Of a DNA stretch of 64,000 nt, positions 19,858 through 27,041 are shown in pieces (the first letter of the stretch is position 1; every line of letters starts with the position of its first letter). The notes beneath the pieces were generated by a model. It did not search any database and was not told the DNA's origin. It saw nothing but the letters and a program-made list of their open reading frames with translations. Source of the stretch: Corallococcus macrosporus DSM 14697 (GTDB lineage Bacteria; Myxococcota; Myxococcia; Myxococcales; Myxococcaceae). Both the position numbers and the translations under genes were made by a program. The stretch lies in contig NZ_CP022203.1 of assembly GCF_002305895.1 (NCBI RefSeq), positions 310,001-374,000 on the forward strand, read 5' to 3'.

Positions 19858-20745
19858 CTAGCGGCGAGGGAGCTTGGGCATGTCGGAAATAGGTTCGCCG
19901 GGGTTTGTTTTTCCGAATGACGTGACACTGCGGTAGCAGGTTCTTGAGAGCTTCTCGAGTTCCTCTTTGGAGAGCTTGAATTCTGACGTGTCGCAGTTCT
20001 TGCGGAGTTCCGCGTCGCAGGCTTTCGCGTAGCGGTTGATGATGGGCTCAAGCCTGTCCTGGACGTTCCAGTTGTAGCCCAGATGGTCGAACTTGGGACT
20101 GCCCTCAACCATCCAGGAGCCATCTTCCAGGATGAGGTGCCGGGGGAGTCCCAGGACACGGGCGACCTCCAGGTCCTGGGGCAGGATGATGACGTTGATG
20201 TGGTGGTTGATGTTGTAGCCGGCGCGCAGGAGCGCCAGTCGAATCAACGTCTGGCAGTCAGCATCTTCAATCTCCGCGATGGTCTCATTGAAGAGCCCCT
20301 TGGGAATCAAGTGGTGCGAGTTGTGCCAGTACGGCCACGTATGCTTCGAGAAGTTCTGTCCACGGGGAATGGGCCTGCCCGCGGCATCCTCCATGTTGTC
20401 GCGGGTGGGGCCGTCCAGGTGCCAGTCGCCCGGCTCCGGCAGACGGATGACCGCGCCATACTGTCCTGGATAAAGGTTCCCCCGGTTGCTCAGGTACGCC
20501 GACGTGGCCAGCAGCCCCATGGGGGCGGGCTTCTGCCGGGCTCCCGCGGTGGGGGTCTTGTTGTAGAGCGCCGTCCGGTTCTGCTTCGACTCCGTGAGCG
20601 CCTGCCAGCGGTATGAGCAGGTGCTGGGGTCGAGGCTGGAGTCATGCCCCGTCAGGCACGCGCCACCCTCGGTGTTCTCCTTCACCACCACGTGAGGGCA
20701 GGTGCCGTCTGGGTTGATGACGTGTTCGTCGGTGCTCTTCCCCAT
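19858..20745 (-). CDS. AHH-type nuclease effector (T6SS cassette)
   Basis: A 295-residue protein with an AHH/HNH-like motif NSHHLIPKGLF (His144, His145) followed by INHHINVIILPQD, as in AHH-type nucleases of polymorphic toxins. The N-terminal 130 residues hold Cys-rich stretches (C16, C30, C43) of unknown role. No signal peptide is visible, and the PAAR-like DUF4150 gene starts 24 nt upstream, so delivery by a type VI spike is the likely route, as a separate cargo protein rather than as a C-terminal extension of the spike. An immunity gene of the Imm11 type follows 6 nt downstream. DNA cleavage is inferred from the motif. Confidence 0.72.
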   Translation of the reverse strand: MGKSTDEHVINPDGTCPHVVVKENTEGGACLTGHDSSLDPSTCSYRWQALTESKQNRTALYNKTPTAGARQKPAPMGLLATSAYLSNRGNLYPGQYGAVIRLPEPGDWHLDGPTRDNMEDAAGRPIPRGQNFSKHTWPYWHNSHHLIPKGLFNETIAEIEDADCQTLIRLALLRAGYNINHHINVIILPQDLEVARVLGLPRHLILEDGSWMVEGSPKFDHLGYNWNVQDRLEPIINRYAKACDAELRKNCDTSEFKLSKEELEKLSRTCYRSVTSFGKTNPGEPISDMPKLPRR

Positions 20746-20769
20746 GGCGCTCCTCCGTGCCGTGCCTTG

Positions 20770-21237
20770 CTACTCCACCTTCTCCTTGCAGATGAGGCAG
20801 CACGGCTCACCCGCTTCTTTCCCCACCGCCACCACGGGAGGCTGGATGAGTGGAAAGGGCGGCGTGTTCTTGTCGTTGTGCAGCATCAAGTCGAAGGCCC
20901 GCGCCACGTTCTTCCCTTCGAACTTCACGTCGAAGGAGTAGTTGACGAACTCCGCCTTGCCCTTCGTCTTCCCGGAGGCCACGCCGCCACCGGCCGTGCC
21001 GGCTTCATCTCCGGTGCTCGTGCTGAAGTTCGAGTCCTTCAGGCACGCGGGATTGCCCTCCACGGACACGGTGCTGCTGCCCTGCGCCGTGTCCGCCGAG
21101 CGCGCGACATTGGGATAGGGAATGGGGACGGGCCCCGCCGGGCTGGGCGTCTTGCACACGTCGGGGAAGGCCACCGTGGTGCCGTTGCTGCCCTTCGTCA
21201 CCACGGACATCTTGTTCACGCCAACGGTGTTGCCCAT
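20770..21237 (-). CDS. DUF4150 PAAR-like protein
   Basis: A 155-residue PAAR-like protein of the DUF4150 family. It has the typical features of this group: VAFPDVCKTPSPAGPVPIPY near residue 30, PYPNVARSADTAQGS, and a conserved Gly-rich middle (STGDEAGTAGGGV). DUF4150 proteins cap the VgrG spike of type VI secretion systems and carry effectors encoded beside them. It starts MGNTVGVNKMS at 21237. It follows the TIGR02270 gene by 21 nt and is upstream of the toxin, so the order is spike, toxin, immunity. No VgrG or core T6SS genes are in the window, so this is an orphan effector island. Confidence 0.88.
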   Translation of the reverse strand: MGNTVGVNKMSVVTKGSNGTTVAFPDVCKTPSPAGPVPIPYPNVARSADTAQGSSTVSVEGNPACLKDSNFSTSTGDEAGTAGGGVASGKTKGKAEFVNYSFDVKFEGKNVARAFDLMLHNDKNTPPFPLIQPPVVAVGKEAGEPCCLICKEKVE

Positions 21238-24315: not shown

Positions 24316-25266
24316 CTACCCGCCGCGCGCGTGCCTCACCAGCGCGCGCGTCAGGTGCCCCGCCACGTCCGTCCCGCCGCGCGCGTCGAAGCCCAGGAAC
24401 ATCGCCGAGCCGTTCAGCTCCAGGAAGCGCGGCACGCCGTCCGCGTCCCGCTTCAGGTCCATCCCCGTCCAGCGCAGGCCCAGCACCTCGCAGGCCTTCA
24501 CGCAGTCGCGGGTCAGCTCGGGTGGCGGCGTCACCGGCTCGATGACGGCTTCCCGCTGCCGGAAGTCCAGCGACGGCGAGGTGATGCGCAGGCTCGCGAT
24601 GACTTCGCCGTCCAGCACGTACACGCGCAGGTTCTCCCCCGGCAGCAGCTCCTGGAAGGTGACGGGCGCGGCGGCCAGCGCCGCGAGTCGTTCATCCGCG
24701 AGGTCGGCTTCACGCAGCTCCCGCGTCGCCGCGCCGCCGGTGACGGGCTTGTAGACGGTGCGTCCTTCCCGCGCGAAGCGGCGCACCGCCTCCGCGTCGT
24801 TCGTCCAGAGCGTCCGGGGCACCGGGAGCCCCGCGGCCTGGAGCGCGGCGAGCTGCGCGGGCTTGTGCAGACTCCAATCCGAGGACGGCGGGTTGTAGAG
24901 CGGCACGCCCATCCGCTCCCAGCGTCCGAGCAGGCCCGACAGCAGCGCGCTCTTCTCGCGGAACGCGGTGAGCGTGGTGCGCCAGTCCGCGTCCATGTGC
25001 TCCCGGGCGTCCACCCCGAAGGCCAGCGGATGGCCGTGCAGGCCGCGCACATATACGGCCGCGGGGCGCCCCACCTCGCGCCCGTCCACGACGATGCCGT
25101 CCAGCGTCTCCGTGAGCGACAGCCGCGTCCGTTCGGGAAAGGCCCGTGTGTCCACCACCACCGTGTCCACGGTCTCGGCGCGAAGCCGGCGCGCGACCTC
25201 CTGGACATGGGCGTCGTCACGCGCGCCCAGCAGCACCACCGCGCCTGTTCGTGTCACGGGCATCAT
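24316..25266 (-). CDS. RimK-like ATP-grasp ligase, putative graspetide macrocyclase
   Basis: A 316-residue ATP-grasp protein (starts MMPVTRTGAVVLLG; two ATGs are adjacent, the second at 25263). Features of the fold are RTVYKPVTGG (ATP-binding Lys region), VTFQELLPGENLRVYVLDGE, GMDLKRDADGVPRFLELNGS (metal-binding Asp/Glu/Asn) and an N-terminal DDAHVQEV-like domain. These match RimK-type ligases including the plesiocin ligase PsnB group. It lies 105 nt downstream of a 50-codon gene with a TTxxxxEE core, so it probably forms omega-ester (or amide) links between Thr and Glu side chains in that peptide. GGAG sits 3 nt before the second ATG. RimK-like peptide or protein ligase of another kind remains possible. 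Confidence 0.8.
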   Translation of the reverse strand: MMPVTRTGAVVLLGARDDAHVQEVARRLRAETVDTVVVDTRAFPERTRLSLTETLDGIVVDGREVGRPAAVYVRGLHGHPLAFGVDAREHMDADWRTTLTAFREKSALLSGLLGRWERMGVPLYNPPSSDWSLHKPAQLAALQAAGLPVPRTLWTNDAEAVRRFAREGRTVYKPVTGGAATRELREADLADERLAALAAAPVTFQELLPGENLRVYVLDGEVIASLRITSPSLDFRQREAVIEPVTPPPELTRDCVKACEVLGLRWTGMDLKRDADGVPRFLELNGSAMFLGFDARGGTDVAGHLTRALVRHARGG

Positions 25267-25272
25267 CTCCAA

Positions 25273-25431
25273 CGGTGGTCCGAGGGGACGCGCCAACGTC
25301 GGGGCTCACCACCGCCGCCCGTCTCTTCGTCGGCCTGCAGCGTGGTCACCAGCGGTGGTCCAAGGAGGGCGCTAACGTTGGAGCTCGCCGCCGTCGCCCG
25401 TCTCTTCCCCAACCTGCATCGTGGTCACCTG
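25273..25431 (-). repeat. Imperfect tandem duplication (about 80 bp x2) of the precursor core
   Basis: Two direct copies of 80 bp (25273-25352) and 79 bp (25353-25431) are about 80 percent identical by hand alignment, with one indel. The upstream copy on the coding strand (25431 to 25353) encodes the C-terminal core of the precursor peptide, including its stop. The second copy carries the same TTxxxxEE motif, as VTTLQADEETGGGG, but in the +1 frame after the stop, ending at a TGA that overlaps the ligase start. The longest identical blocks cover the Thr-Thr and Glu-Glu codons. No separate start with a ribosome-binding site precedes the second copy. Confidence 0.75.
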
Positions 25432-25524
25432 ACCTGTCTCTTCCCGACTCGGCTCAGGGGGCGTGGGGCCCCAGTCCTGGATGAACAGCGCGGGCGGCGG
25501 TCTGGGCGGAGCGTTCTCTGGCAT
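25372..25524 (-). CDS. Graspetide (plesiocin-type) precursor peptide
   Basis: A 50-residue peptide gene. A strong ribosome-binding site (GGAGG, 4-nt gap) precedes the ATG at 25524. The N-terminal leader is Pro-rich and contains LFIQDWG (residues 13-19), similar to the short hydrophobic leader motif that graspetide ligases recognise. The C-terminal core holds TTMQVGEE (residues 34-41), an exact fit to the TTxxxxEE motif of plesiocin-like omega-ester-containing peptides, where Thr hydroxyls are linked to Glu carboxylates. The ligase gene follows 105 nt downstream on the same strand. Only one in-frame core is present, unlike plesiocin with several. Identification rests on motif and context; product structure is not known. 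Confidence 0.72.
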   Translation of the reverse strand: MPENAPPRPPPALFIQDWGPTPPEPSREETGQVTTMQVGEETGDGGELQR

Positions 25525-25610
25525 GGTGCCTCCAAGATGTGGACGGGCATGTCGCCGCACCAGGGGGCGCTCCCAGGCCCGGGACGCCGCGTCAATGCGG
25601 GGCAGGCCTG

Positions 25611-25624
25611 CGTCGGCGCCGACG
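25611..25624. promoter_or_regulatory. 14-bp perfect palindrome, possible operator
   Basis: CGTCGGCGCCGACG is a perfect 14-bp palindrome in the 221-bp divergent gap between the graspetide precursor (start 25524) and the M20 peptidase gene (start 25746). A dimeric repressor or activator could bind here and control one or both genes. In such GC-rich DNA palindromes can also arise by chance, so this is only a candidate. Confidence 0.3.
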
Positions 25625-25745: not shown

Positions 25746-27041
25746 ATGAAAGCTCTTGCCCTGCGTGAGGACCGCTTCCTTGACGTGCTCCGGCGGCTCA
25801 TCGCCCTGACCCCCAAGCTGCAGAACAACCCTGGCGCCGGGCTGGTGCCCGAGGAGCGGCTCGCCGCGCAGGTGGTGCTGGACACGCTGGCGCCGTACAT
25901 CGAGAGCGGCTTCATCCAGGCGGAGTCCGTGGCCGGCCCGGGCCAGGCGGCGCGCCCGTGCCTGGTGCTCACCGTGCCGGGCGAGGGGGAGGGCGCCATC
26001 GGCTTCGTCGGCGCGCACTTCGACGTGGTCCCCGCCGACCAGAAGGCGGAGGGCTGGGCGCGTGACCCCTTCACGCTGTGGCAGGGCCCCGGCGGCGTGC
26101 TCTACGGGCGCGGCGTCACCGACTGCCTGGGGCACGTCGCCGTGCTCACGGACCTGCTGGCCCAGCTCGCCGAGCGCAAGGTGCGCCCCAGCCGCACGCT
26201 CAAGGTGGTGCTCATCTCCAACGAGGAGTCCTCGGAGCTGCCGGGCCTGGGCCTCAACTACGTGGCCGAGCAGGGCCACCTCAAGCCACTCGACGGCCAG
26301 CCGGTGTACTGGCTGGACAGCGCCAACTTCGGCCCCACCCTGGGCACCGCGGGCGTGTCGCTGTGGGAGCTGAAGGTGACGGGCGTGGGCGGCCACTCCG
26401 GCATGCCGCAGAACTGCGTCAACGCGCTGGAGCTGGGCATGGCCGCCTCGCTGGAGCTGGCCCGCTTCTTCCACGCGCGCTTCCCGCCCACCGAGGACGA
26501 GCAGCGCTGGGGCTTCCTGTCGCCCTCCAGCCTCAAGGCCACCGTGGTGGAGGCGCCCAATACCAAGGAGACGAAGGTGCCCGCCGACGTCGTCCTGCGC
26601 GGCGACATCCGCCTCACGCCCTTCTACGACCTGGCGGAGGTGCAGCAGGCGGTGACGGACTTCATGGCGGCGCTCGACGCCCGCCTGGCGCGCGATGACG
26701 CCCCCGCGCACTTCCCCCGCACCCGCACGGCGGGCGGCAAGCGCGGCGAGCTGGCCTTCCGCTTCCAGGGCACGGGCACCGAGGGCATCGCCTGCCGGCT
26801 GGACTCGGAGGGCCTGCGCGCGCTCAAGGAGGCCATGCAGGTGGTGCGCGGCGTGGCGCCCACGCCCTTCTCGCTCACCGGCTCGCTGCCGCTGGTGAGG
26901 GACCTGCAACGCCAGGGCTGCGACGTCCAGATTACCGGCTTCGGGGACATGCAGTACTACCACGCCCCCAACGAGCAGGCCCGGCTGGAGGACTTCCGGC
27001 AGGGCTTCGCCATCCTCCGCGAGCTGCTCGTCCGCCTCTGA
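25746..27041 (+). CDS. M20-family amidohydrolase, acetylornithine deacetylase-like
   Basis: A 431-residue zinc hydrolase of the M20 family (ArgE/DapE/CPG2 group). Metal-site motifs are GAHFDVVPA (His first ligand), GRGVTDCLGH (Asp bridging) and ISNEESSE (Glu pair). A dimerisation-lid region follows with VGGHSGMP, and FGDMQYYHAPNEQAR near the C-terminus includes a final His ligand. It is the type annotated as acetylornithine deacetylase, which releases acetate from N-acetylornithine in arginine synthesis, but other amide substrates are possible. Start ATG at 25746. It is divergent from the graspetide locus and followed by a large inverted repeat; I see no other arginine genes nearby. Confidence 0.8.
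   Translation: MKALALREDRFLDVLRRLIALTPKLQNNPGAGLVPEERLAAQVVLDTLAPYIESGFIQAESVAGPGQAARPCLVLTVPGEGEGAIGFVGAHFDVVPADQKAEGWARDPFTLWQGPGGVLYGRGVTDCLGHVAVLTDLLAQLAERKVRPSRTLKVVLISNEESSELPGLGLNYVAEQGHLKPLDGQPVYWLDSANFGPTLGTAGVSLWELKVTGVGGHSGMPQNCVNALELGMAASLELARFFHARFPPTEDEQRWGFLSPSSLKATVVEAPNTKETKVPADVVLRGDIRLTPFYDLAEVQQAVTDFMAALDARLARDDAPAHFPRTRTAGGKRGELAFRFQGTGTEGIACRLDSEGLRALKEAMQVVRGVAPTPFSLTGSLPLVRDLQRQGCDVQITGFGDMQYYHAPNEQARLEDFRQGFAILRELLVRL

Follow-up and report, generated by a model that had tools for sequence, protein, structure and literature searches.

A predicted minimal, single-core graspetide locus of the plesiocin type in Corallococcus macrosporus DSM 14697

A 64,000-nucleotide stretch of the Corallococcus macrosporus DSM 14697 genome (hereafter the window; G000:C1:310001-374000 of a single-contig genome of 8,973,512 bp) contains a two-gene locus which, judging by its sequence, is very likely a minimal, single-core graspetide cassette of the plesiocin type (group 2). 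Three sequence features characteristic of this group were found, namely a ligase of the PsnB clade, an adjoining precursor with an LFIxD-type leader, and a conserved TTxxxxEE core. A preliminary description of the sequence had proposed a graspetide locus, and this reading is now supported by the match of the enzyme to PsnB, the match of the peptide to PsnA2, and the conservation of the gene pair. The 50-residue reading frame with LFIQDWG and TTMQVGEE, the ribosome-binding site in front of it and the ATP-grasp ligase gene following on the same strand, all listed in that description, are present in the window (Table 1).

Table 1. Features of the predicted graspetide locus and its surroundings (window coordinates).
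Feature	Position	Strand	Details
Graspetide precursor	25372..25524	(-)	50 aa, MPENAPPRPPPALFIQDWGPTPPEPSREETGQVTTMQVGEETGDGGELQR; ATG 25524-25522, TAG 25374-25372
Precursor ribosome-binding site	25529..25533	(-)	GGAGG, 4 nt 5' of the ATG
Relic core copy	25290..25350	(-)	between precursor stop and ligase start; +1 frame reads TTLQADEETGGGGEPRR
ATGA overlap	25263..25266	(-)	relic-frame stop TGA 25265-25263 overlaps the ligase start ATGATG
PsnB-like ATP-grasp ligase (predicted macrocyclase)	24316..25263	(-)	315 aa; alternative start 25266; stop TAG 24316; downstream of the precursor
Palindrome	25611-25624		CGTCGGCGCCGACG; upstream of the precursor
M20 peptidase	25746-27041	(+)	neighbour of the cassette

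The precursor is composed of a short, proline-rich leader (residues 1-32, with LFIQDWG at 13-19), a lysine-free core with TTMQVGEE at residues 34-41, and the tail TGDGGELQR. The GGAGG preceding its start codon is kept as an exact or near copy in the relatives L002 and L003. The combined pattern LF[ILV]x[DEG][LW]...TTxxxxEE has a single occurrence in the window and none in 200 Markov windows of equal size. The TTxxxxEE motif by itself was rejected as evidence, since the corresponding DNA pattern, in any frame, was counted 319 times in the whole genome versus 190 times in a reversed control. No convincing further precursors were found elsewhere in the genome. In a family alignment of 18 precursors only M1, L13, F14, T34, T35, E40, and E41 are invariant, and these columns appear to represent the leader anchor and the four predicted ring residues. 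The dN/dS values between the window and four close relatives were in the range of 0.03-0.15 for the core and 0.29-0.51 for the leader; the core is thus under strong purifying selection.

The preliminary description suggested a comparison of the peptide with known precursors. A profile built from the 18 precursors, with no PsnA sequence included, was matched best in the PDB by the PsnA2 fragment co-crystallised with PsnB (LFIEDLGKVTGGKGGPYTTLAIGEE, E 0.011), in which the corresponding motifs are LFIEDLG...TTLAIGEE. The E-value is modest because the PsnA2 chain is only 25 residues long. The profile singles out the one peptide known to bind PsnB, the best-matching enzyme of the ligase.

Among the two possible starts of the ligase in ATGATG (25266 and 25263), the ATGCCCGTG start at 25263 is conserved in the sister species. 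The search of the ligase against the PDB revealed PsnB (7DRM-7DRP) as the best match with an E-value of 5e-95, followed by MdnC (1e-8), 9BOU (PruB, 2e-8), and RimK-type enzymes (5e-6 or worse). The score against the NCBIfam model TIGR04187 (GRASP_SAV_5884, ATP-grasp ribosomal peptide maturase) was 84.8 bits, under the curated cut-off of 350. On the maximum likelihood tree, a 95/99 branch separates the window ligase, its orthologues, relatives from Sorangium and Chromatiales, and PsnB from MdnC, PruB, and other myxobacterial grasp ligases; the window ligase sits in a myxobacterial clade of its own, next to PsnB and a sequence from Chromatiales. It therefore groups within the peptide macrocyclases, as anticipated in the preliminary description. 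The top 15 Foldseek hits of the ligase model were all PsnB chains, and the model (pLDDT 70), with a TM-score of about 0.5 to PsnB, adds little beyond sequence and is too weak for pocket mapping. The named relatives of the ligase belong mostly to Myxococcus and Pyxidicoccus species, and only distant ones, with at most 37% identity, are located on plasmids.

A full-length orthologous ligase was found in 17 of the 27 same-genus genomes sampled, with 71-89% identity in those other than the window genome. The TTMxVGEE precursor, also carrying LF, lies directly upstream of the ligase in 15 of these 17. No local precursor beside the ligase was found in the remaining two, G012 and G020, which carry an unlinked precursor, MKTNKVKTIKELFVKDMARIQGG...NTTLACCEEADDGCCSVE, with the ligase absent within the roughly 6-kb stretches examined; genome G021 carries precursors of both kinds, linked and unlinked. 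In other genera, the precursor either lies on the downstream side of the ligase or is encoded on the opposite strand about 3 kb off. The association of a TTxxxxEE peptide with orthologous ligases in relatives, expected from the preliminary description, is thus borne out both within the genus and beyond it. In the sister species the stop codon of the precursor directly adjoins the start of the ligase or overlaps it (TGAGGATG, TGATG), which fits the expectation for co-translated partners.

Unlinked plesiocin-type precursors ending in TTLACCEEADDGCC(S/V)VE, were observed in L108 (2776-3015), L109 (2837-3145), and L110 (3148-3495), with no ligase in the approximately 6 kb inspected; the cysteine pairs adjoining their ring residues are unusual. 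A precursor of this type sits about 3 kb from the ligase in G033 and G053. The same myxobacterial locus, with synteny kept (ligase 83%, M20 peptidase 93%), is also present in L054, a record titled Comamonas sp. KCTC 72670, whose organism name looks wrong.

In four close relatives (G001, G007, G019, and G023), only fragments of the ligase remain between the same two flanking genes, comprising residues around 133-164 and 259-316 in G001 and G007, 287-316 in G019, and 294-316 in G023; the start region of the precursor is also retained in G001 and G007. These remnants are scars left where the cassette was deleted. The differences between their endpoints point to three or more separate deletion histories, and the repeated loss among close relatives indicates that the cassette is dispensable. 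No trace of the cassette was detected within reach of the searches in six further genomes of the 27.

A feature of the window genome is a second copy of the core between the two genes, an 82% repeat of positions 25369-25429 at a spacing of 79. This 79/80-bp tandem duplication was found only in the window genome among the genomes aligned, and the sister species are without the copy. The ligase start is displaced about 105 nt from the precursor stop. One could hypothesise that the core duplication parted the genes and broke their translational coupling, leaving a degenerate, non-functional cassette, as the displaced start and the presence of nothing but deletion scars at this site in four close relatives might imply. 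However, we consider this unlikely, since the reading frames of both the precursor and the ligase are intact, a GGAG precedes the ligase ATG, the core differs from that of L002 by six synonymous and only one non-synonymous change, and the dN/dS of the ligase is about 0.3.

The second copy lies in frame +1 with respect to the precursor and has no leader of its own. Of 54 sites compared with the two nearest relatives, 6-7 differ in copy 1 and 12-13 in copy 2, and the dN/dS of copy 2, 0.61 on few sites, gives no clear sign of purifying selection. The second core is therefore most likely a dead out-of-frame duplicate; in the simplest reading it was out of frame initially or soon after and is now drifting. 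Plesiocin precursors are multi-core, and a +1 shift at CGT TAG would read through ALLGPPLVTTLQADEETGGGGEPRRWRVPSDHRWR up to the TGA overlapping the ligase ATG; recoding at the TAG would then add a second core, TTLQADEE, and one gene could yield graspetides with one core alongside others with two, the longer frame terminating at the ligase start. Both the recoding and such a product mix appear highly improbable, given that no known shift-prone motif is evident, the 79/80 spacing of the repeats is not divisible by three, and copy 2 is diverged and missing from the aligned relatives.

A RimK or LysX-type amino-acid ligase accompanied by a spurious small ORF is scarcely credible and largely refuted by the PDB matches and the conserved precursor: although Pfam assigns the ligase to RimK (E 2e-7) and RimK structures also match weakly, the E-value for PsnB is better than that for RimK by some 90 orders of magnitude, the small ORF has been conserved, with its ring residues invariant, and it matches PsnA2, and another gene in the genome (G000:C1:447803-448447) is RimK-like. 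The RimK-like sequence of the same genome falls on the PsnB side of the tree, but its branch is very long, truncated, and unsupported, so that the placement of RimK there is uninformative.

The palindrome reported upstream of the precursor in the preliminary description does exist, but it is not conserved: the two nearest relatives lack the stretch that bears it. The palindrome is therefore not part of the system, and its role as a regulatory site was rejected. All 27 same-genus genomes have the neighbouring M20 peptidase gene, which remains at the site, with 95-97% identity, in genomes that lost the cassette. Since it persists after cassette loss, it is a neighbour and probably not a partner of the cassette, and it was rejected as the leader protease. 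No transporter or dedicated protease gene was found among the seven neighbours scanned, and two C39 peptidases encoded elsewhere in the genome were set aside because the leader is without a double-glycine site. Farther off in the window (19858-21237, minus strand), a Tox-PAAR-like gene adjoins an AHH nuclease-like gene, the two probably forming an effector pair.

By analogy with known systems, the ligase would bind the leader through LFIQDWG and phosphorylate the core glutamates in an ATP-dependent manner. Two nested ester bonds would then form within TTMQVGEE, with a mass change of -36 Da, resulting in a single bicyclic ring-within-ring hairpin; the predicted rings are Thr35-Glu40 (inner) and Thr34-Glu41 (outer). 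The leader would be cut off by a protease encoded elsewhere, and export would likewise depend on genes located elsewhere. Catalysis by PsnB has been described as distributive (PMC5934393). All graspetides characterised as of 2022 were reported to be protease inhibitors (PMC8939145), which makes protease inhibition the best guess for the product of this locus, a function that we regard as slightly favoured. Plesiocin has a hairpin connectivity and inhibits serine proteases, with potency rising with the number of motifs (PMC13097080); having one core versus four in plesiocin, the product of this locus may inhibit more weakly.

The closest known system is plesiocin PsnA2/PsnB of Plesiocystis pacifica (group 2, PDB 7DRM-7DRP), whose ligase is about 50% identical over its length. 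Both systems have an LFIxD leader, a TTxxxxEE core, and a single ligase, with no second grasp enzyme. However, plesiocin has four cores, whereas the locus described here has one in-frame core, its second copy being out of frame and thus not a tandem core; it also differs in its short proline-rich LFIQDWG leader and in the position of its ligase in a separate myxobacterial clade. Gra-5, a product of group 2 in which the set of ring residues is reduced, was made earlier (PMC9576775), so departures from the plesiocin pattern are not new in themselves. With the microviridin system (MdnA with MdnB/MdnC) the locus shares leader-guided ester formation by an ATP-grasp enzyme, predicted in the present case. 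Microviridin is characterised by two ligases, a PFFARFL leader, a TxKxPSD core, and a lactam along with esters, in contrast to the one ligase, LFIQDWG leader, and absence of core lysine found here, where the E-value to MdnC is only 1e-8.

A second myxobacterial graspetide family (L023, L025, L026, and L067) has up to about 17 TTMAVGEE-type cores in genes divergent from the ligase; the precursors of L023, L026, and L067 carry a PFTRYE(V/L)P leader. The PFTRYE-leader family shares with the present locus cores of this type beside an ATP-grasp ligase, but it differs in having about ten or more cores, another leader, and divergent transcription, and the ligases of L023 and L026 fall in a clade separate from PsnB. 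In L024, L027, L028, and L029, long precursors with many repeats (KVMMDDPTRGSK or KVIADEPTNPVKGGGD) precede ATP-grasp ligases, an arrangement suggestive of one more group of multi-core graspetides in Myxococcus and its relatives. In L041 and L042 (genomes G033 and G053), about 4 kb separate a plesiocin-type ligase from two ATP-grasp genes lying next to each other, one of them grouping with MdnC, and two kinds of graspetide system thus occur side by side.

The locus appears to be an ordinary family member and leaves general knowledge of graspetides unchanged, while adding to the known family a well-supported, apparently uncharacterised single-core pair of the plesiocin type. This pair is retained in a large part of a predatory bacterial genus, yet has been repeatedly deleted in close relatives. 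The pattern of gain and loss, together with the relic core and the unlinked precursors, illustrates the duplication, loss, and relocation of cores. Since one core is the minimal unit, the cassette would offer a clean substrate for testing the function of a single hairpin.
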